A DNA stretch of 64,000 nt. Origin: a virus. Positions 8,561 to 62,732 of the stretch are shown here, piece after piece. Position numbers and translations under genes: made by a program. The stretch covers positions 124,001-188,000 of the IMG/VR virus record IMGVR_UViG_3300020172_006270. The stretch is one strand, 5' to 3'. Numbering within the stretch: position 1 is the stretch's first letter; each line of letters starts with the position of its first letter. The notes under the pieces are model-generated. The model saw only the letters and a list, made by a program, of their open reading frames with translations, was not told the DNA's origin and did not search any database.

Positions 8561-9291
8561 AGGTTCTTCTTTCCAAGTTTGCTGGCTGCATAGCAAGTCT
8601 GCGTATATCCTTCGAGGCTTTCACCGCAGTCTGCCCACCAACCGTCAATCTTGTGGGCATGGAGTTTTCCAATATTCAAGTAACGGTTGTTGAGATCGGT
8701 GATTTCGAGTTCATTACGTTTGGATGGCTTGAGTGTTCTGATGTAATCCCACACTCCTCCATCGTACATATACAACCCTGTTGCAATCAAGTTGGACTTC
8801 GGCTCTTTTGGCTTTTCTTCGATGCCAATTACCTTGCCTGCTGCGTCCGTTTCGACTACGCCATAACACTCTGGATGTTCTACCGGCGTTAAGAAGATGT
8901 GCGCCCCATCTGGGTTTGCCTCGAATTCAGTAACAATCTGAGGGACAGGGTTCTCGTAGATATTGTCGGCCAAGATTACTGCAACTGGCTCGTTGTCGGC
9001 CCACTCCTCGGCCAGCGACAAAGCGTCGGCAATGCCTTTGGCTTCTTTCTGGTATGTGTAGTGAAGATGCTTCAGTCCAAATTCTTCGCCGTTGCCAAGA
9101 ATCCTGAGAAATTCACCAGCGGCGTTGCCGCCACATACCAAAAGAATGTCTTTAATGCCGCTGCCCACCAGCGTTTGAATCGGCCAATAAATCATGGGTC
9201 GATCATACACTGGCAATAAGCATTTGTTGGTTACTTTTGTCAAAGGATGAAGTCTCGTCCCCATCCCGCCTGCTAAAATAATGCCTTTCAT
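8557..9291 (-). CDS. rfbA: Glucose-1-phosphate thymidylyltransferase (RfbA/RmlA-type)
   Basis: 244 aa, the short form of the family. It makes dTDP-glucose from dTTP and glucose-1-phosphate, the first step to rhamnose-type sugars. Visible: the nucleotide-binding signature GGMGTRLHPLTKVTNKCLLP (residues 8-27), YDRPMIYWPIQTL, GxCYGVVE-like HPECYGVVETD, and EEKPKEPKSN. The start follows CGGAGAAAACAG. It forms a two-gene unit with the glycosyltransferase downstream. No rmlB/C/D is visible here, so the product may enter a host pathway. Confidence 0.92.
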   Translation of the reverse strand: MKGIILAGGMGTRLHPLTKVTNKCLLPVYDRPMIYWPIQTLVGSGIKDILLVCGGNAAGEFLRILGNGEEFGLKHLHYTYQKEAKGIADALSLAEEWADNEPVAVILADNIYENPVPQIVTEFEANPDGAHIFLTPVEHPECYGVVETDAAGKVIGIEEKPKEPKSNLIATGLYMYDGGVWDYIRTLKPSKRNELEITDLNNRYLNIGKLHAHKIDGWWADCGESLEGYTQTCYAASKLGKKNL

Positions 9292-11518: not shown

Positions 11519-11524
11519 TATTTA
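11519..11524 (-). promoter_or_regulatory. TAAATA box 4 nt before ATG (leaderless-type late promoter)
   Basis: Minus-strand TAAATA, then GGGC, then the ATG of the C39-like peptidase. It lies inside the end of the upstream gene. Part of a recurring class in this window. Confidence 0.55.
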
Positions 11525-12292
11525 TGACTGAGCATTGTATTGAGCCAAAAATTGTGGCACCAATTGCATGATTTGATCGTGCGGATTTTCGTGGTTATAG
11601 CCAAATCTATTGACATTTTTTTGCCAAACTTCAGGCTTTGCAAAACCGCTGAAGTAATTCTTATGGGTTGTGGTGAACCCCGGCTTGTCCAATATTGATT
11701 GTGCTTTGGTTAAATCGAATGGTTCGCCGGGGAAGTTTTTGGCATACAAATAGGCCATTTGTCTGGCGTGCGCTCGAACCTCTCCGGGATTGCTCATGTA
11801 TTGCATCGCCATGCGGTGCTTATCGTCGCCTTCCCAATCGTTTGAATCATATTCTGCACCCACATTGTAAATGTGTTCTGCTTCATGGTGCATTGCCGAT
11901 TTAAGAGTTGCCAAATGTGCATCAACATCTTCTATGCTCTTGGCATAGTTGAAAGGATACATATTGATGACAAAGCCCTCGAACTTGCCGTTGTTGTGAA
12001 CGGTATCGGCAGCATTGTGGCCCAGCTTGAGTTTGAATTGAACTCGTTGACCAGCAATATCAGCGGGGAAGATGTTGGGCAGCACAAATTCGCCGTTTTG
12101 AACAGCGTCTTGCGGCCAAACTTGTCTGACGTAGTTCGTATACGTCTGATTTGGCTGACCGGCCTGCATGTCTCTCTTTTTGAGAGCGGTGGCCTTGTCA
12201 AGAATATCTTCAAGAAAACGTGCGACTTGAATCTCAACGATGTGTTGAGATTCTTGAAGATTTAGCCAATGATGAAATGAAAACTTCCCCAT
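11522..12292 (-). CDS. Capsid-targeting-like N-terminus on a zincin metalloprotease-like protein
   Basis: 256 aa. Begins MGKFSFHHWLNLQES: the F-x-x-W-L-x-L-x-E module, with LQE as the predicted cut site. Residues 136-140 are HEAEH, an HExxH zinc site, and E171 in NPGEVRAHA is a good third ligand. The surroundings are helical. It is expressed from a box inside a terminator hairpin with no Shine-Dalgarno. I infer a head-packaged protease delivered with the DNA. Confidence 0.7.
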   Translation of the reverse strand: MGKFSFHHWLNLQESQHIVEIQVARFLEDILDKATALKKRDMQAGQPNQTYTNYVRQVWPQDAVQNGEFVLPNIFPADIAGQRVQFKLKLGHNAADTVHNNGKFEGFVINMYPFNYAKSIEDVDAHLATLKSAMHHEAEHIYNVGAEYDSNDWEGDDKHRMAMQYMSNPGEVRAHARQMAYLYAKNFPGEPFDLTKAQSILDKPGFTTTHKNYFSGFAKPEVWQKNVNRFGYNHENPHDQIMQLVPQFLAQYNAQS

Positions 12293-21441: not shown

Positions 21442-22449
21442 ATGCTATCGTACAAACAGTGGAAGACGCTGAATGAGTCTGTATTACCGAGCTTCAATCT
21501 TGGTATTGCCAACCCATCAAACCTGGGCATTCAAGCTCCATCCGGCTTCGGCATGGACCTAGAAGAAGCCAAAAAGATGTCCAAGAAGAAAGCCAAAAAG
21601 AAAATGTTTGGCGATGATGAGGAAGATGAAACCGGCGACGGTGAGATGGTTGAACCATCTTCTGAAAAAGACGATCCAGATGTGGACGTTGATGTGGATT
21701 CTGATGATGACGGCGATGAAAAGCCTAAGTTCAGCAAGAAGTGCGGCAATATGTGCGGCGCTCAATCCAAGAAGAAGTCCAAGGCCAAGTGTGGTGCCGA
21801 TATGGACGATGATGATATGGACGATGAAGAAGGTGCCGATATTGACGCCGAGGGCGACGATGAAGGCGATGACGAGGGCAAGAAAGACTTGAACTCGGTT
21901 CTCTTCTCGAAGAAGAAGTCCAAGAAGAAAATGATGAAGTCCAAGAAGAAAATGTGGTCTGACAATGACGACAGCGACGGCGACGATGAAGACGCTGAAG
22001 ACATGGGCGACGAAGACATGAGCGACGAAGACATGAGCGACGAAAACATGAGCGACGAAGACATGGAAGACGCCGAAGAAGAGGCCGGTGTAGACTTGGA
22101 CGGCGATGACGAAGAAGGCGAGCCAGAAGAACACAAGAAAAAGGTTCTAGGTGGCAAAGGCGGCGATGTCGGCGGCGGCATGGGTGATGCAGGCCCAATG
22201 TTCTCCAAGAAGTCATCTAAGAAGAAAATGCAAAAAGAAGCCACTGACGAAGAGAAGTGGTGGAATAGCGTTCAAAGCATGACCGGCAGTTCTCCTGATA
22301 CGAAGTACAACGATGGTTGGACTGAATATCAAAGCACTGGTGGCGGCGAAAATCTATTCACTCCAGTTGATACCGAGAACTTAACTCAGGCTGTTCGTCC
22401 TGAGCCGGGTCAGCCAGGATTTGCTCCTTCCGGTCGCATTGGCAGCTAA
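21442..22449 (+). CDS. Alternating acidic/basic low-complexity protein with capsid-targeting-like start
   Basis: 335 aa. Begins MLSYKQWKTLNES, with the module and an LNE cut site; GAGGAATAATT precedes it. Beyond residue 40, long Asp/Glu blocks (including tandem MSDED repeats, about residues 192-208) alternate with FSKK/SKKKSKKK basic blocks at about residues 97, 154 and 255. It also contains Cys-rich bits (KKCGNMCGAQSKKKSKAKCG). The last 80 residues are a Gly/Pro-rich non-repetitive tail. A disordered polyampholyte packed in the head is inferred. Confidence 0.75.
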   Translation: MLSYKQWKTLNESVLPSFNLGIANPSNLGIQAPSGFGMDLEEAKKMSKKKAKKKMFGDDEEDETGDGEMVEPSSEKDDPDVDVDVDSDDDGDEKPKFSKKCGNMCGAQSKKKSKAKCGADMDDDDMDDEEGADIDAEGDDEGDDEGKKDLNSVLFSKKKSKKKMMKSKKKMWSDNDDSDGDDEDAEDMGDEDMSDEDMSDENMSDEDMEDAEEEAGVDLDGDDEEGEPEEHKKKVLGGKGGDVGGGMGDAGPMFSKKSSKKKMQKEATDEEKWWNSVQSMTGSSPDTKYNDGWTEYQSTGGGENLFTPVDTENLTQAVRPEPGQPGFAPSGRIGS

Positions 22450-26747: not shown

Positions 26748-27053
26748 ATGTACGGATTCAAACAATTTATCACCGATCAGGGCGGCGATGGGGACATCAT
26801 AAATGTTTACCTTAACAGCCCAAAAATACGCATCTCCGAAATTGCTCAACAATTTGGCAAATCGGAGGCCGAGATATATCGTATTCTACACTCCAACGAC
26901 GTGTCGCCGAATAGACAAAAGGTGAATCATCAAAAAGTTCAGAACCTCGCTCAATTAGGCTGGGGAGTTCGAGAAATAGCCGAGTTCACCGGATATACCC
27001 CTCGCAACGTCCGATATATCCTGGCGAAGAATATCTCTGAAGGTAACAAATAA
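26748..27053 (+). CDS. Double helix-turn-helix protein with capsid-targeting-like start
   Basis: 101 aa. MYGFKQFITDQGG matches F-x-x-F-I but has D rather than E at the expected cut. Two helix-turn-helix units follow: ISEIAQQFGKSEAEIYRIL (residues about 29-47) and VREIAEFTGYTPRNVRYIL (about 75-93). A DNA-binding protein that may be packaged and act on entering DNA or host promoters. Its TAA overlaps the ATG of the next gene. Confidence 0.7.
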   Translation: MYGFKQFITDQGGDGDIINVYLNSPKIRISEIAQQFGKSEAEIYRILHSNDVSPNRQKVNHQKVQNLAQLGWGVREIAEFTGYTPRNVRYILAKNISEGNK

Positions 27054-27877
27054 TGGCTTTATCAATTTCTGACATCACCTTTACTTTTTCGGGCGGGAGC
27101 AACAACTCTGATCCTGATGAATCTTTGGGTGGCGATCCGTCTGTTCAGCCAATCCTCAACAAAAGACTGTTTGATGATGTCACGGATGCTGAAACGAAAT
27201 CTGGCGTGATCGACTATCGTTGCTTTTATGTCAATAACGAAAGCAATATTGATTCTCTTTACAACGCATTGATTTACGTTGCGTATGACACTCCAGGCGA
27301 AGTGACTGTGCAATTGGGCTTTGACTTTGCGAATGAGCGGCAAAATCTGACAATCACAAATGCCACATCTATTACAGGTGGCTCTTTCACTTTGACATAC
27401 ACTGACACCAGCAACCATGACGTGCTGGTAAATTGGAACTCTGACTTATCTGTTTGGTCAGGCAATCTTCAAACTGCACTTCGAGCGATCACAAATCTTG
27501 AAGACGTTGTTGTGTCTGGTTCTTTGTCTGTATCGAGTGTTGTGTTTGAAATTGACTTTGATGGAGCGGCATCAAAAAGGTATCATGAGGTATTGGCTCT
27601 CAAGACGGGAGGCAACAACCTAGTCGCCAGTCAAACAACAACGATTAGCGTCGTGAAGTCAGTGAGTGGTGGTCCGATCAATCGCATAGCCGATGTTATT
27701 GATGTTGACACAACTACTCCCAACAATATCGTTTTTAACACAACGGCTTCTGTGGGAGATATTCGTCCCTTAGATAGCATCCCTATTTGGATCAAAAGAA
27801 TTGTTCCTGCCAACACTCCGGCGATTGAAAATGACGGGTTTGTTTTGAGAATAAAAGGTGACGGCATTCCCGCATAA
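27053..27877 (+). CDS. Beta-rich virion protein
   Basis: 274 aa, all-beta. The stretch GSFTLTYTDTSNHDVLVNWN followed by SGNLQTALRAITNLEDVVVSG resembles the small beta modules common in phage surface and tail proteins. The C-terminal IPIWIKRIVPANTPA is reminiscent of tail-associated proteins. Coupled to the preceding late gene (TAATG), so it is late. The exact location in the virion is unknown. Confidence 0.65.
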   Translation: MALSISDITFTFSGGSNNSDPDESLGGDPSVQPILNKRLFDDVTDAETKSGVIDYRCFYVNNESNIDSLYNALIYVAYDTPGEVTVQLGFDFANERQNLTITNATSITGGSFTLTYTDTSNHDVLVNWNSDLSVWSGNLQTALRAITNLEDVVVSGSLSVSSVVFEIDFDGAASKRYHEVLALKTGGNNLVASQTTTISVVKSVSGGPINRIADVIDVDTTTPNNIVFNTTASVGDIRPLDSIPIWIKRIVPANTPAIENDGFVLRIKGDGIPA

Positions 27878-27929: not shown

Positions 27930-28505
27930 ATGAAATACTTACTTTGTTTTTTGCTGGTCATGGCGTTTGGCATCAATTGTCAGATTGCTAGTGCGCAAAT
28001 CATCATCTTCACTCCAGAGCCACCGCCTCCTCTTTTGGGGGATTACGAAAAGGCTTTGGGCCATTTCAAAAAGGTTGAGGCCGCTACATTCACTGGTGGA
28101 TACAAAGACCTTAAATTGATTGTCGGAGCTACCAAGACAGAAAAAAAGCTCAGTGACTTATCGACTCAAGAGCAAAATGTTTTTATACTTGATTTGGCTG
28201 AGAAACAAACCAAGCTAATGAATACCTTGCAGAAAGCCTGGAGTCGTGAACTTAAAAAGTTTGACAATCCTGATTACAAACCGAAAGGTGAGGGCGAAGA
28301 CAAGCCTGCTCTCAAGGCCGATGTTGAGAAGTACAATAATCAACTATTGGAATTGAGAAAGAAATATGCTGTCGCCTACGAAGCGTTTGCCGAAAAGACC
28401 TTAAAGGAATTCGATAAATTGGACAAGAAAGAAGTTGATTTTACGCTTAATCAAATTCGATCTATTCACAATGTCGAAAAGTTAATCGAAAGAAAAAAGG
28501 AATGA
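27930..28505 (+). CDS. Exported protein, unknown
   Basis: 191 aa from an ATG 6 nt after TTGGAGAT. Signal peptide MKYLLCFLLVMAFGINCQIASA then QII. The mature part is mainly charged helix (YEKALGHFKKVEAAT...) with no recognised motif. A TAAATT box at 27875-27880 may be its promoter, and an inverted repeat (TGTGGA-3 nt-TCCACA) lies just before the ribosome site. It ends 3 nt before the McsA-like gene. Confidence 0.65.
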   Translation: MKYLLCFLLVMAFGINCQIASAQIIIFTPEPPPPLLGDYEKALGHFKKVEAATFTGGYKDLKLIVGATKTEKKLSDLSTQEQNVFILDLAEKQTKLMNTLQKAWSRELKKFDNPDYKPKGEGEDKPALKADVEKYNNQLLELRKKYAVAYEAFAEKTLKEFDKLDKKEVDFTLNQIRSIHNVEKLIERKKE

Positions 28506-28508
28506 CCT

Positions 28509-29099
28509 ATGGACTGTCCGTATTCCAAACAACCTTGTGATGATAAGAAGGTTCTGCATGTTACAGAACTGAAGGATGGCAGTTATGTTGAGTCGCATAT
28601 GTGCGATAAATGTGCAGCAAAATATACTGGCGGTCCAGTCGAACCAGAGGTTAAGCCCGAACCAGAAAAACCATCTAGTTTGGGTGGATTACTTGGCTTA
28701 TTGTCTTTGTTGATGCTTGGGACCGTTGCTTCTCAGAAGCGAGCAACAGTTAAAGCTGCATCACAAACAACAAAATGTCCTGGTTGTGGAACAACTCCAG
28801 AAGACATTTCTAAGACCGGCAAGTTCGGTTGTGCCAAGTGCTATGAATACTATCAAGCATCTGTTGAACACATTCTTCAGAAGTGTCAGAATGGTGCAAC
28901 TAAACACGTTGGCAAAGTGCCTAAGAAATTTCCCGAAGAACAAGAAAAACGCCGCCTCCAAGAAGAAGCGGCGCTCAGTGTTCAGGATCAAATCAAAAAC
29001 CTTGAAGATAAAATGGCCAAGGCCGTCAAGGTTGAAAACTATGAAGTTGCTGGAGTCTTGAAATTAAAGATTCAAGAACTTCGAGAACAACTAATGTGA
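28509..29099 (+). CDS. McsA-like protein (zinc fingers plus UVR-like helix pair)
   Basis: 196 aa. The centre and C-terminus follow McsA: CPGCGTTPEDISKTGKFGCA then KCYEYYQ (C90, C93, C108, C111) and HVGKVPK, then a helical UVR-type pair (LEDKMAKAVKVENYEVAGVL). The N-terminus has another CxxC set (C3/C10, C32/C35) and a hydrophobic stretch (residues 58-73) that could touch a membrane. In bacteria McsA activates the arginine kinase McsB and tags proteins for ClpCP. A phage copy could redirect that system. Confidence 0.8.
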   Translation: MDCPYSKQPCDDKKVLHVTELKDGSYVESHMCDKCAAKYTGGPVEPEVKPEPEKPSSLGGLLGLLSLLMLGTVASQKRATVKAASQTTKCPGCGTTPEDISKTGKFGCAKCYEYYQASVEHILQKCQNGATKHVGKVPKKFPEEQEKRRLQEEAALSVQDQIKNLEDKMAKAVKVENYEVAGVLKLKIQELREQLM

Positions 29100-30047
29100 T
29101 TTGACCCACTCTTCCATTTTGCGTGGATCAATAATCCCGAATCCCTCAAAGAACTTTTGACCAGCGAATTCGGGATTTTTCGTTGGTGTCGTATAGGACT
29201 TCATCAAGTTGATGTAGTCTGTATTGTCTTTTAGTTGGATGTTCAAGCCTTTGTTTCGCTTATAGGAAAGCAGCAATGCTGCCACACCTACAGCAAACGG
29301 ATTTGCCATACTTGTCCCTGAGAGAACAGCATACCAGTTATCTGGAACTGTACTCAGGATTCGCACACCTGGGGCAACGAAGTCCAAGTCTGGACCAGTG
29401 CAGCTAAATGAAGCACGGTCAAAATTCTCATCAATAGCACCAATGCCAATTACTTCAGGGTAAGCAGCCGGATAGAATATTTGACGTGTCTTGCCAGCAT
29501 TACCGGCAGCACACCATGTTATCGCTCCCTTAGAAGCTGCATAGCGAATGGCATCTTGAATCATCGGCATTTGAGCCGGTGCGCCAAGAGACATCGTAAT
29601 GAAGTCGGCACCCTGGTCTGCGGCCCAACGAATACCATTGGCGACGTTAGGTAGGTTTCCAGCGCCTTTGTTGTCCAATACCTTAACAGGAATGACCTTT
29701 GCCTTCGGAGCCACGCCCACAACACCAACATCGTTGTTGATGGCACAAATAATGCCTGTAACGTGTGAACCGTGGCCGTTATCGTCTTCTGGTGGTGAAT
29801 TAGGATCAACGAAGTTTCTGCCAGGAAGAAGATTTCCTACGAGGTCGTCGTGATCTAAATCTGCACCTGTGTCGAGTACAGCGATAACTACCCCTTCGCC
29901 TTTGGTGAATTCCCAGGCTTCAGGCAGATTAAATGCTGTAATTTCCCAGCCTACTTTTTGTTGGACATCTTGAATAGTCAAGAGGTCTTCTCGGTCGTAG
30001 GGTAAAAGATTGCATACGGGATTACGCAACTTGATCCGTTGTGCCAT
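29091..30047 (-). CDS. Subtilisin-like serine protease (intracellular type)
   Basis: 318 aa, no signal peptide. Catalytic D59 (AVLDTGAD), H92 (GHGSHVTG) and S246 (SGTSMANP), with N183 in AAGNAG. The N-terminal NLLPY resembles the LIPY inhibitory prosegment of intracellular subtilisins. Likely degrades host or phage proteins inside the cell. It overlaps the membrane-protein gene upstream by 26 nt and the McsA-like gene (convergent) by 9. Confidence 0.92.
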   Translation of the reverse strand: MAQRIKLRNPVCNLLPYDREDLLTIQDVQQKVGWEITAFNLPEAWEFTKGEGVVIAVLDTGADLDHDDLVGNLLPGRNFVDPNSPPEDDNGHGSHVTGIICAINNDVGVVGVAPKAKVIPVKVLDNKGAGNLPNVANGIRWAADQGADFITMSLGAPAQMPMIQDAIRYAASKGAITWCAAGNAGKTRQIFYPAAYPEVIGIGAIDENFDRASFSCTGPDLDFVAPGVRILSTVPDNWYAVLSGTSMANPFAVGVAALLLSYKRNKGLNIQLKDNTDYINLMKSYTTPTKNPEFAGQKFFEGFGIIDPRKMEEWVKSH

Positions 30048-41241: not shown

Positions 41242-41498
41242 CCCGCCATTCCGTCTCTAATGCCAACTATTACTTTGTCATTTTTAACGGAATAGGCAAT
41301 TTCGCACCAATCTGAATCCTTGGCAGGATTGTATTTGTGCTTCGCTCTAACCGCCTGGAGAGCCGCTTTTTCGTATTTTTGCACTATTGCGAGTGCCGCA
41401 CGCAGTTTTTCAGATTCTTCTCTCGTAATCTCAATGGAGACGTTGGTTAATCCCCAAACTACTCCACTAGGACCACGTTCGACGCTTTCAAGTTTCAT
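41238..41498 (-). CDS. Small unknown protein (86 aa)
   Basis: Start overlaps the stop of the glutamate dehydrogenase gene (ATGA), so it is co-translated. Alternating strand and helix (VSIEITREESEKLRAALAIV). No family recognised. Confidence 0.6.
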   Translation of the reverse strand: MKLESVERGPSGVVWGLTNVSIEITREESEKLRAALAIVQKYEKAALQAVRAKHKYNPAKDSDWCEIAYSVKNDKVIVGIRDGMAG

Positions 41499-42760
41499 CT
41501 CTGGAAATATCCCTTGTTGCCCAAGCAGGCGTTCGCTGCATTGATTCGCTTCAAAGCTAAGACATATGCTGCTGTCCGAGCAGAAATATCGTGCTTCATA
41601 TGCAAGGCGATTACTTTCTCGGTTGCATATACCATCATCTCTCGTAAATCATGATCGACCTCTGGCAATGTGCGGCTGATCGCAGTTCGGTTTTGAAGCC
41701 ATTCAAAATAGCTGACTACAACACCACCAGCGTTAGCCAGAATATCGGGAATCACTAACACTCCACGATCATTGAGAATTGCATCAGCCTCATTTGTGGT
41801 AGGGCCGTTGGCCATTTCCAAGATCACCTTTGCTTTGATCTTGTCTGCATTGTTAATGGTGATGACGTTCTCAACAGCAGATGGAGCCAATACGTCAATA
41901 TCGAGGGACCACAATTCTTCATTGGTGATCTTATCGCCGTCGCCCCATTCTTTGCCACCACTCTCATCGAGGGACTTGCGGCACGCCGATACATTGAGTC
42001 CGTGTTCATTATATGAACCACCAAACTCATTGGTCAGGGCCACCACCTTCAATCCAGAACGGAAGCATTTCTCGGCCAACCAATATCCTACCTTTCCGAA
42101 TCCTTGAATTGCAATTCGGATGTCTTCTGGGTTAGACGGGATATTCACTTTGCTGATACTGTTGTTGAGAACATTTTCCAGAACGTAATATCCACCATAT
42201 CCGGTGGCAGAACTTCTGCCTTCAATGCCGCCCAGGGCAACTGGTTTTCCAGTGACAATATCCTTTGGGTGTCCACCTTTGATTCTTTTATATTCGGAGT
42301 ACATCCACCCCATGATTCGTTCGTCGGTGTACAAGTCAGGCGCAGGCACATCGACATCAGGACCGATAAAGTCGATCATGGATGCGATATATGCTTTGCT
42401 GAGTCGTTCCAATTCACGGTGCGATAATTTTGTCGCATCAACGCAAATACCGCCTTTGGCACCACCATATGGCAATTTTAAGCACGCACATTTGAACGTC
42501 ATCCACAGGGCAAGAGCCTCGCAGTGGTCAGCATCTACAGATGGATGGTAACGAATGCCGCCCTTTGCCGGGCCAAGAGTTGTGTCGTATTGGCATCTAA
42601 ATGCCTGATACATTTTGAGAGTCCCGTCATCATGTCGCATTGGGATTGTGACATTCAGGGTCTTTTGTGGATATTGAAGTCGCTGCCAGCTTTCATCATC
42701 AATTTCAGCAAATTTATAGGCAGCATCAAGTTGTTTTTTGGCTTCTTCTAACATCGACAT
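41495..42760 (-). CDS. NAD(P)-dependent glutamate dehydrogenase family protein
   Basis: 421 aa, full length. PAKGGIRYHP, LPYGGAKGGI and GPDVDVPAPD (substrate side) and AIQGFGKVGYWLAEK (NAD site) are the signatures of the Glu/Leu/Phe/Val dehydrogenase family; the catalytic Lys is in GGAKGG. It interconverts glutamate and 2-oxoglutarate plus ammonia. GAGGG lies before the start and it has an early-type promoter. It may pair with the lysine aminotransferase at 45550. Confidence 0.93.
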   Translation of the reverse strand: MSMLEEAKKQLDAAYKFAEIDDESWQRLQYPQKTLNVTIPMRHDDGTLKMYQAFRCQYDTTLGPAKGGIRYHPSVDADHCEALALWMTFKCACLKLPYGGAKGGICVDATKLSHRELERLSKAYIASMIDFIGPDVDVPAPDLYTDERIMGWMYSEYKRIKGGHPKDIVTGKPVALGGIEGRSSATGYGGYYVLENVLNNSISKVNIPSNPEDIRIAIQGFGKVGYWLAEKCFRSGLKVVALTNEFGGSYNEHGLNVSACRKSLDESGGKEWGDGDKITNEELWSLDIDVLAPSAVENVITINNADKIKAKVILEMANGPTTNEADAILNDRGVLVIPDILANAGGVVVSYFEWLQNRTAISRTLPEVDHDLREMMVYATEKVIALHMKHDISARTAAYVLALKRINAANACLGNKGYFQR

Positions 42761-52309: not shown

Positions 52310-52807
52310 ATGGGTCAGAAGTTTATTTGGTCTGCGGAATGGAGAGACGATAAGACATGGCAGCTTATCGCACCGCCTGCTCCTGTACAAATTGGCACAC
52401 GTCCACATTTGACCATAGAAGAAATAGCCGTGCAGCATGGCAATAATACTGCGTGGATACCCGGCAAGGCATCCTGGAATGAAACAAAGATCACCTATAA
52501 CGACGTAGAAAATGAAGAAGGTGGTGCGTTGTTTATGCGATGGGTGTCTGAGCAATATCGTGCCTTAGACACAACAGAAAGCCGTGGCTGGCAATCAGAA
52601 CGAGCGACAGTTATTTTGAGGCTACATGGTGGAAATGGTGAAGTTTTAGAAGTGTGGTACTTGGAAGATTCTTTTATCACCGCTCTGGATTTTGGCTGTC
52701 CAGGCTACACTAGCTCCTTAGATTACGAGCTAAATGTTGCTGTTAGATATTCCGATGTCAGCTATTCGACACCTGATCCTAAAACATGGCTGAAGCCACT
52801 TACTTGA
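52310..52807 (+). CDS. Tail-tube-like virion protein
   Basis: 165 aa, CAGGAG before the ATG and TATAAT at 52286-52291. The second half has the strand order of tail-tube proteins: ATVILRLHGGNGEVLEVWYL followed by EDSFITALDFG and SLDYELNVAVRYSDVSY, as in T4 gp19-type proteins. The fold is inferred from pattern only. Overlaps the convergent minus gene by 8 nt. Confidence 0.45.
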   Translation: MGQKFIWSAEWRDDKTWQLIAPPAPVQIGTRPHLTIEEIAVQHGNNTAWIPGKASWNETKITYNDVENEEGGALFMRWVSEQYRALDTTESRGWQSERATVILRLHGGNGEVLEVWYLEDSFITALDFGCPGYTSSLDYELNVAVRYSDVSYSTPDPKTWLKPLT

Positions 52808-53000
52808 CGGGAACTGCTGTTGCACCACCTGCTCCTTTGCAAGCTCCACCTGGGCCGGGACCACCACCCATGCCACACAATTTTAGATCGTGTGGTTTTG
52901 GAGTTGTATCTTTTGGGCCGGGCTTAAACAAAGAGTCTTGAGCCTTCCCTTTGCTGATCCAACCGCCTTCGTTCAATGATAGCCAATGTTTGAAATCCAT
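52800..53000 (-). CDS. Small protein with capsid-targeting-like start (66 aa)
   Basis: MDFKHWLSLNEGG: F-x-x-W-L-x-L-N-E, one of the clearest copies. Then a short Gly/Pro/Lys tail. TACATA lies four bases before the ATG. After cleavage at LNE little would remain, so a packaged peptide is likely. Confidence 0.65.
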   Translation of the reverse strand: MDFKHWLSLNEGGWISKGKAQDSLFKPGPKDTTPKPHDLKLCGMGGGPGPGGACKGAGGATAVPVK

Positions 53001-54030: not shown

Positions 54031-54762
54031 ATGAACTTTTCAGAATGGTTATCAACTAATGAAGCTCGCTGGCGAGGCCCCGTAGGTGGAGCCTTTGGCC
54101 GTGATTCTCGTCGTATGCAACAACAACAAAAGCCGGTGACACCTGTGGCAAAACCAGAAGAAGAATCGCCCAAGCCAGATTTAGGACATGCTCCCAACCC
54201 TGCTGAACGTACTCCACCGCCTCAAATGCGTATGGGCAATAGGTTCCAGAATATTGACCAGAGAGTTCAATATGGAAAGAGCATTGAAAAGCAAATATTT
54301 GATAGCTTGGTTCGATGTGGGATGAAGCTCCGTGAACCGTCCAGCCAAGAAGATATGTACGACAAGATTGACGGCTGGTGGGAAACGCCGAGTGGTGAGA
54401 AGCCTATTCAGATCAAATATCGTGACACCGGAGATGATATTCTCTTCGAGGTAATGAAGGATTATCGACGTGGCGTGCCAGGAAGAGACATGGTTGGTAA
54501 AGCTGAGTTTTATGCCGTGCTAACTCGTGCCGGAGGCAAAATCGTATTAGTGAGCGTTGCAGAAGCCAAAAAGCTCATAGAAGAGATGCGTACCAGAGCC
54601 GAAGATGAAGGGTTTGACCAGCGTGGCAACTTCCGCATGGGTGGTGCAATATTGCGAGTTCGACCTGATCCACGATCACAACAAGATAAACTCATGGCGT
54701 ATATTCCGGTTTCAATGCTCAAGCAAATCACGCCGCCATGTTCTGCCCAAGTAAAATTCTAA
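54031..54762 (+). CDS. Capsid-targeted PD-(D/E)XK nuclease-like protein
   Basis: 243 aa. MNFSEWLSTNEAR carries the module with TNE as the cut site. A Pro/Gln-rich linker (about 30-68) follows, then a domain with E86 (YGKSIEKQIF), D114 (DKIDGWW) and Q127-I-K129 (PIQIKYR), the order of the restriction-fold nuclease site. I infer a nuclease packaged in the head and injected. It is followed 7 nt later by a methyltransferase. Confidence 0.7.
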   Translation: MNFSEWLSTNEARWRGPVGGAFGRDSRRMQQQQKPVTPVAKPEEESPKPDLGHAPNPAERTPPPQMRMGNRFQNIDQRVQYGKSIEKQIFDSLVRCGMKLREPSSQEDMYDKIDGWWETPSGEKPIQIKYRDTGDDILFEVMKDYRRGVPGRDMVGKAEFYAVLTRAGGKIVLVSVAEAKKLIEEMRTRAEDEGFDQRGNFRMGGAILRVRPDPRSQQDKLMAYIPVSMLKQITPPCSAQVKF

Positions 54763-61295: not shown

Positions 61296-62732
61296 TTAGA
61301 TGACGAAGTTAGCGATGCTCATACGAGCATAGAACTTGGCACCTTCACGCAGCAATTTCTTGCCGTAGCGTGTCAGAATACCCTTGCGTGGGCAGAAGGA
61401 TTCTGGGTCGAGGACCACAGGTGTCTGTGTCAGTGGAACGTATGGGCAGTAGAAGTAACCACTGTCCATGTAGCTGTCGCCCTTGTAACCCATCAAAATC
61501 TGGTTGGATGGGAAGAGAGGGTCTTTGTACAGTCTCCAACGGTTGTTAACAGTACCAACATACTGGATGCCCAGGCTGCTAGTGAATGTTTCGCTTGGGG
61601 CTGGAGCAAAACCTGCGGTTGCTGTCTCGAAGATCGAGGCAACTTCAGGGCTGGTTACGAGCCAGTTAGCTCCACCACGAAGCGTCTTACGGTGGATGAC
61701 GTTAGAAACTTCAACAACCTTGACATACAACGACTCATACTTTTCCTTGATGGTTTCACCAAGAGCAGTATTGAAGTCCCAAGCGGTTACTGTACCGCTG
61801 TTGTTGCGAAGGTCGGTTAGAACTTCACGGTCGATTTCGAGGTTGATTTCCTGGGCCAATACAGCGGTCAGTTCGGCTTCTGCGTCCAGGTTGTGCTGGC
61901 TGCGGAGGTCTTGCTGTGCTTCATAGGACCATACAGCCTTCAACTTACGGGTCTTGGCGGCAATTTCTTCCGACTCGATCACGAGGTTGATTTCTGGGAG
62001 GTCTTGCTGGCACTCCATGTTGTACTCATAGCTGATGACAGCGTGGTTAGCGCCAGGAGCCGAGTTCCATGTGAGGGCGAGTTCGCCAGTGTTGTTGTTC
62101 AAGCTACCTGCTGTAACCTTAACGCTAGGAGCGCCAATGTCAGTGAAGGTGAAGCTACCACCGGACGAAACGATGAATGTCTGGACAGCAGTGCTGCCAT
62201 CATAAATCGTACCAGTTACAGTACCGGCCAAAACTGGTGTGTGTTCCAAAGGAGTGAACACAGCAGCGGTGTCAGTACCAGCGTCAGTCGAGGTCGTCTC
62301 GTTCTGAATGAACTGGTGGGTGTAGAAGATGTCCAGGTTGGCAGTACCGTCAGCGGTCTGCATCAACGAGTTGGCGTCATCACCAGGGAAACCACCGTTG
62401 TTAGAAGCGCCACGGGTTGCACCCTTGTTGCTGCTATAACGGAAGCGTAGGTAATACACCAGACCTGTTGGGCCTAGCAATGGCTGAACGCTAACAATCT
62501 TGTTGGCGATCAACTGTGGGTAAATACGACGGACAAGCGGAATCGAGATTCGCTTGAACTGAGCGATGTCGCCAGTGTCGGTTGAGACTTCATTCATGAG
62601 TCTCTGGTTTTCGAGTAGAACTGCTGTGGCAGAGCGAACGTAACGGTCCTGAATACCTTCGAGGAGTCCGGTCTTGCCCCAACGAGATTCTAGCTCCTTA
62701 GCCTCATTCAAAAATCGAGAATTTGCGTTCAT
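61296..62732 (-). CDS. Major capsid protein (T4 gp23-like)
   Basis: 478 aa, GAGGATAAC before the ATG. Helical N-terminus (MNANSRFLNEAKELESRWGK ... LLENQRLMNE) is the likely prohead-protease-removed part, with LMNE as a candidate cut. RRIYPQLIANKIVSVQPLLG and LVYYLRFRYSS are typical gp23 segments; SYMDSGYFYCPYVPLTQTPV and ILTRYGKKL lie at the C-terminus. Follows scaffold and protease genes as in T4. Confidence 0.92.
   Translation of the reverse strand: MNANSRFLNEAKELESRWGKTGLLEGIQDRYVRSATAVLLENQRLMNEVSTDTGDIAQFKRISIPLVRRIYPQLIANKIVSVQPLLGPTGLVYYLRFRYSSNKGATRGASNNGGFPGDDANSLMQTADGTANLDIFYTHQFIQNETTSTDAGTDTAAVFTPLEHTPVLAGTVTGTIYDGSTAVQTFIVSSGGSFTFTDIGAPSVKVTAGSLNNNTGELALTWNSAPGANHAVISYEYNMECQQDLPEINLVIESEEIAAKTRKLKAVWSYEAQQDLRSQHNLDAEAELTAVLAQEINLEIDREVLTDLRNNSGTVTAWDFNTALGETIKEKYESLYVKVVEVSNVIHRKTLRGGANWLVTSPEVASIFETATAGFAPAPSETFTSSLGIQYVGTVNNRWRLYKDPLFPSNQILMGYKGDSYMDSGYFYCPYVPLTQTPVVLDPESFCPRKGILTRYGKKLLREGAKFYARMSIANFVI

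Follow-up and report, generated by a model that had tools for sequence, protein, structure and literature searches.

Bacteria are known to use a pathway of quality control and stress response in which proteins are marked with phosphoarginine. In Bacillus subtilis, McsA activates McsB, and McsB marks proteins for ClpCP (PMC5506225), and the McsA zinc finger of Staphylococcus aureus makes contact with an extended McsB loop and positions the catalytic cysteine of the kinase (PMC12467219). McsB and McsA have also been described outside Bacillota, in Chlamydia (PMC5177608). Interference with ClpCP by a phage is already known from SPO1, whose Gp53 is thought to target the ClpC/ClpP adaptor layer (PMC6873191). 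Genes for ClpP and ClpS have been described in jumbo phages (PMC7824862), in a survey whose text mentions neither McsA nor McsB. No description of a phage McsA was found in the literature that we searched, most subscription papers lying outside its scope.

The window analysed here, a stretch of 64,000 nucleotides, covers bases 124001-188000 of a 223,268-base virus record. It encodes a T4 gp23-like major capsid protein (61296-62732, - strand) whose nearest annotated relative, at 79.8% identity, belongs to a 595-kb uncultured phage (LR756511.1). The window's phage is a T4-like huge phage, and 337 stretches in IMG/VR are related to it.

Results

An mcsA-like open reading frame extends from an ATG (28509) to a TGA (29099), with a ribosome-binding-like AAGGA located 7-8 nt 5' of the start codon. 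The gene and the parts of its product are as follows.

28509-29099, + strand: mcsA-like gene, 196 aa, with two zinc fingers, a leucine-rich linker and a UVR hairpin (NCBIfam McsA, PDB 8wtb, fold matches, dN/dS)
28515-28613, + strand: first zinc finger (C3, C10, C32, C35), CX6C...CXXC, invariant in 12 phage copies
28677-28733, + strand: hydrophobic linker stretch SLGGLLGLLSLLMLGTVAS, sitting where bacterial FSIHNLLSGLL sits
28776-28922, + strand: second zinc finger, residues 90-138, which includes HxGKxP and corresponds to the module that contacts McsB in S. aureus
28986-29090, + strand: UVR helical hairpin, residues 160-194 (PF02151, 24.6 bits against a Pfam cut-off of 21.5; pLDDT 94-98)

An earlier note on this DNA had proposed a McsA-like protein on the basis of a zinc pattern and a UVR-like tail, and profile and fold searches bear this out. 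The NCBIfam McsA profile (NF053706) matched residues 8-194 over profile positions 4-173 of 182 with E=3.5e-25, B. subtilis McsA (PDB 8wtb, from McsA/McsB crystal structures) matched with E=3.2e-17, the N-terminal finger included, and the S. aureus McsA finger matched with E=9e-11. The profile score of 88.9 bits is below the NCBIfam equivalog cut-off of 210 bits; judged by its sequence, the phage protein is a McsA-family homologue, functional equivalence lying beyond the score reached. Pfam alone detected only the UVR motif, and no match to UvrB was present beyond this motif: residues 130-194 aligned weakly with the UvrB C terminus (E about 0.01), and the McsA profile outperformed UvrB models by more than 20 orders of magnitude. 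In an AlphaFold2 model that drew on 47 other McsAs, block means of pLDDT were 88-91 over residues 91-120 in the second finger and highest over the UVR helices, with an uncertain linker, and the only PDB fold matches with E<=1e-3 were the McsA chains of 8wtb and 8wtc, both McsA/McsB complex structures. The dN/dS of mcsA was 0.037 against a close relative (L001) and 0.059 against a more distant one (L002), which shows that the reading frame encodes a protein under purifying selection. That 28509-29099 is a real, full-length phage-encoded McsA homologue is thus well supported by sequence comparison; it is a phage variant of the known McsA family and not a new kind of protein.

Two Cys-rich fingers, a leucine-rich linker, a UVR hairpin and a full-length alignment are common to the phage protein and described McsA (NF053706; B. 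subtilis 8wtb/8wtc, S. aureus 8gqd). The earlier note had called extra cysteines and a hydrophobic stretch unusual. Most of these features occupy canonical McsA positions and are not additions, since bacterial McsA has a finger and FSIHNLLSGLL there; what stands is the spacing of the first cysteine pair and the stronger hydrophobicity. All four cysteines of the N-terminal finger are present, the first pair being CX6C in 12/12 full-length phage copies instead of the CXXC found in 44/44 Bacillota copies examined. The 19-residue Kyte-Doolittle mean over linker residues 57-75 is 1.77, compared with 0.3-1.0 in eight bacterial McsAs. The second finger, in which residues 90-113 read CPGCGTTPEDISKTGKFGCAKCYE, carries the McsA pattern CxxC...GCxxCY...HxGKxP (with CPxCG at its start) and is the best-preserved part of phage McsAs, whose overall identity falls to 26-38%; C90, C93, G107, C108, C111, H133, G135, K136 and P138 are invariant across the phage copies. 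In contrast, phage copies vary at several positions that are invariant or almost so in Bacillota McsA (e.g., F100, G104, F106, P121, G129 and R140), which suggests that the McsB interface may have changed.

Viral contigs found directly with mcsA comprised L001-L003 (84-98%) and the 245-kb L016 (32%), and the gene is also present in the 595-kb phage. Divergent copies (26-38% identical) are present at the corresponding syntenic position in another 11 lineages of T4-like huge phages, with genomes of up to 595 kb. Among 22 contigs >30 kb selected by capsid gene, a sample picked independently of mcsA, nine carry mcsA, including all three >200 kb (532, 343 and 254 kb), and many of the contigs without mcsA are without the whole locus. 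Where the adjacent gene for a 274-aa protein is present, 9/10 contigs also carry mcsA, which indicates that mcsA is near-core in this clade. The phage-encoded McsA that the earlier note had read from a single sequence is therefore better supported than could be seen at that stage, as it is conserved across a clade of huge phages. One copy (G027) is reduced to 88 aa and contains the second finger only, with no UVR. A tree that included 44 Bacillota McsAs as its only bacterial members separated phage from bacterial copies at one branch (98/93); the phage branches are long.

Across 50,697 annotated phage records, the sole convincing phage McsA was that of the unannotated 595-kb genome; the other matches read were bacterial DNA. 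Three phage-database matches (H2, H3 and H9; two faecal 'Bacteriophage sp.' and one 95-kb Staphylococcus record) were rejected as phage McsA, since mcsB directly follows mcsA in each and they look like mislabelled bacterial DNA, and the same probably applies to 1.5-2.9-kb Listeria and Staphylococcus records and to other faecal matches. Clostridioides difficile 'plasmids' with mcsA carry ctsR-mcsA-mcsB-clpC together with pyruvate carboxylase, EF-G, radA and disA, and look chromosomal. An apparent Bacillota chromosomal ctsR-mcsA-mcsB-clpC region was observed in the phage-labelled MT835711.1, MT839167.1 and OR844998.1 and in the plasmid-labelled NZ_CP149721.1 and NZ_CP149745.1. Such mislabelled records could be mistaken for evidence that phages or plasmids carry mcsA.

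The gene order around mcsA is conserved in 12 other regions, where genes for a 313-aa, a 260-aa, an HTH, a 274-aa and a helical protein precede mcsA and a convergent subtilase follows it. The 274-aa gene and mcsA each occur in 12/12 of these regions, and the subtilase in 9/12. In the window, the neighbours are:

26748-27053, + strand: 101-aa HTH protein encoded first in the gene run (HTH Pfam matches; N terminus like the T4 capsid-targeting motif)
27053-27877, + strand: 274-aa phage protein, phrog_13135, in all 12 syntenic regions and in the same gene run as mcsA
27930-28505, + strand: helical protein that looks exported (signal peptide judged by eye), stopping 3 nt before the mcsA start
29091-30047, - strand: convergent subtilase (Peptidase_S8, PF00082, E=1.2e-52; Asp/His/Ser motifs intact on visual inspection)

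The subtilisin-like protease that the earlier note placed convergently beside mcsA is indeed there and is a conserved neighbour. A consistent association with mcsA is seen, however, for the upstream helical-protein gene, which that note did not mention. It lies immediately 5' of mcsA in 11/13 regions, the window counted (in G027 by position and hydrophobic start only), and the gap between the two genes is -4 to +3 nt in the regions measured, suggesting translational coupling. A conserved W and, at the C terminus, an LIERKK motif characterise this helical family; an AlphaFold2 model from three sequences was poor (mean pLDDT 56.5). In a close relative, G009 (HTH protein 72% and subtilase 75% identical), the subtilase gene comes straight after the 274-aa gene; the helical gene and mcsA are both absent from this locus, and tblastn found no remnant of them there. 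This joint loss indicates that the two genes behave as a cassette and that a phage can live without them. As G009 retains the subtilase without mcsA, and mcsA occurs elsewhere without the subtilase, the protease is not tied to mcsA. In L016, a gene for a circularly permuted YpsA of the SLOG family (8629-9201, + strand) lies between mcsA and the subtilase.

We then consider the partners of McsA. The McsB arginine kinase (PF00217) was found in 0/28 phage records (six McsA-bearing records and the 22 capsid-chosen contigs), whereas a Bacillus positive control was detected with E=3e-77; a kinase partner must therefore come from the host. An arginine-phosphatase candidate (LMWPc) was absent from six of the phages. 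Neither mcsB, ctsR nor clpC lies beside phage mcsA, which thus differs from the ctsR-mcsA-mcsB-clpC-type operon in context as well as in being phage-encoded and directly 3' of a gene for an exported-looking protein. Among Bacillota loci, an mcsB motif was close 3' of mcsA in 30/44, and mcsB adjacency typifies the Bacillota operon without being a requirement for the McsA family. ClpP-family proteins are encoded by the 595-, 532-, 343- and 245-kb phages and two more contigs, a full ClpX with its zinc finger by the 595-kb phage, and a ClpX-sized AAA_2 protein (458-aa frame) by the 532-kb phage; Clp-type protein entries in relatives are L098, L100, L102, L206-L210 and L220. No ClpP or ClpX was found in the record under study, which may be incomplete, and no ClpP in the 254-kb relative.

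Discussion

The conservation of a kinase-less McsA suggests that huge phages may plug into, or jam, the protein-degradation system of their hosts. We propose that phage McsA acts in trans on the host phosphoarginine/Clp machinery, switching on or setting host McsB, a reading that we hold tentatively and at somewhat short of an even chance. The second zinc finger would dock on a McsB-type arginine kinase of the host, docked phage McsA would turn this kinase on or keep it in a phage-set state, and chosen proteins would then be marked and delivered to ClpCP during infection. We infer the presence of McsB in the host, its binding by phage McsA, and activation, not inhibition, as the result. Action on host McsB is the simplest reading given the absence of a phage kinase, and it is favoured by the full-length McsA match and the McsA-only significant fold matches, by the McsB-contacting finger being both the best-kept part and the sole part left in G027, and by the conservation of one syntenic locus in the clade with dN/dS of 0.04-0.06. 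It is weakened by the variation of Bacillota-fixed residues and by the missed equivalog cut-off; moreover, folding alone would also preserve the zinc ligands.

Phage McsA could instead be an adaptor that works without any arginine kinase, its zinc fingers and UVR hairpin bridging substrates or the upstream partner to host ClpC/ClpX or to the ClpX/ClpP that relatives encode themselves. The Clp proteins of these relatives and the ClpS adaptors known from jumbo phages (PMC7824862) speak for such a role, ClpS being, however, an adaptor of ClpAP, and the UVR hairpin has a fold like the ClpC M-domain at a weak Z of 6.1-6.4. This likeness concerns a common two-helix hairpin, though, the G027 copy keeps the second finger and not the UVR, and ClpP was not seen in the phage under study or in the 254-kb relative; we consider the adaptor role rather unlikely. 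In line with the changed interface residues, phage McsA might be a decoy that occupies host McsB without proper activation or keeps it off its targets, sparing phage proteins or stopping the host stress response. SPO1 Gp53 offers a precedent in modulating ClpCP through competition with adaptors (PMC6873191), but it binds ClpC itself and has little sequence in common with B. subtilis adaptors, whereas phage McsA is homologous to the McsB-targeting McsA. As a simple blocker needs less than the complete set of domains, zinc ligands and UVR retained by nearly all copies, inhibition seems quite improbable. A role outside proteolysis, for instance as a virion or repair-related zinc protein merely descended from McsA, would fit the gene run shared with the 274-aa and exported-looking proteins, the loss of the helical gene and mcsA as a unit, and the detection of just the UVR motif by Pfam alone. 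Against it stand the feeble UvrB match next to that of McsA and the fact that the McsA-specific finger is the conserved part, and we give such a role slightly less probability still.

It is tempting to speculate that huge phages evolved a cassette of exported-looking helical protein and phage-type McsA that diverts the host protein-degradation machinery without a phage kinase and perhaps couples events at the envelope to Clp proteolysis in the cytosol; we think this broader scenario unlikely as it stands. If McsA is near-core in a widespread clade of huge phages, the phosphoarginine pathway would become a target of phages. Relatives with and without the cassette at one locus provide a natural comparison, and its role is testable once a host is cultured. 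With regard to the host, a scan of genome contigs with patterns that lean on Bacillota returned Bacillota matches only, and the occurrence of McsB and McsA in Chlamydia makes a non-Bacillota host possible. The secreted proteins of these phages give an impression of a planctomycete-like look; for a cytochrome-like protein encoded by the 595-kb relative, neither a plasmid match nor a planctomycete-specific Pfam match was obtained.

Two metabolic genes carried by the phage were also observed, a glutamate dehydrogenase in the window (41495-42760, - strand) that is common to two relatives, and a GlpX-type fructose-1,6-bisphosphatase in L015 (8699-9637, + strand; E=1.6e-92). Finally, a start resembling the T4 capsid-targeting sequence, M-x-[F/Y]-[K/R..]-x-[F/W]-[L..]-x-x-[E], occurs in ten open reading frames of the record as compared with 1.6 expected from shuffles. 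Five of these lie in the window (11522-12292, - strand; 21442-22449, + strand; 26748-27053, + strand; 52800-53000, - strand; 54031-54762, + strand) and five more in the record, and the proteins that bear the motif, the HTH protein of the mcsA run among them, may possibly be packaged or ejected.
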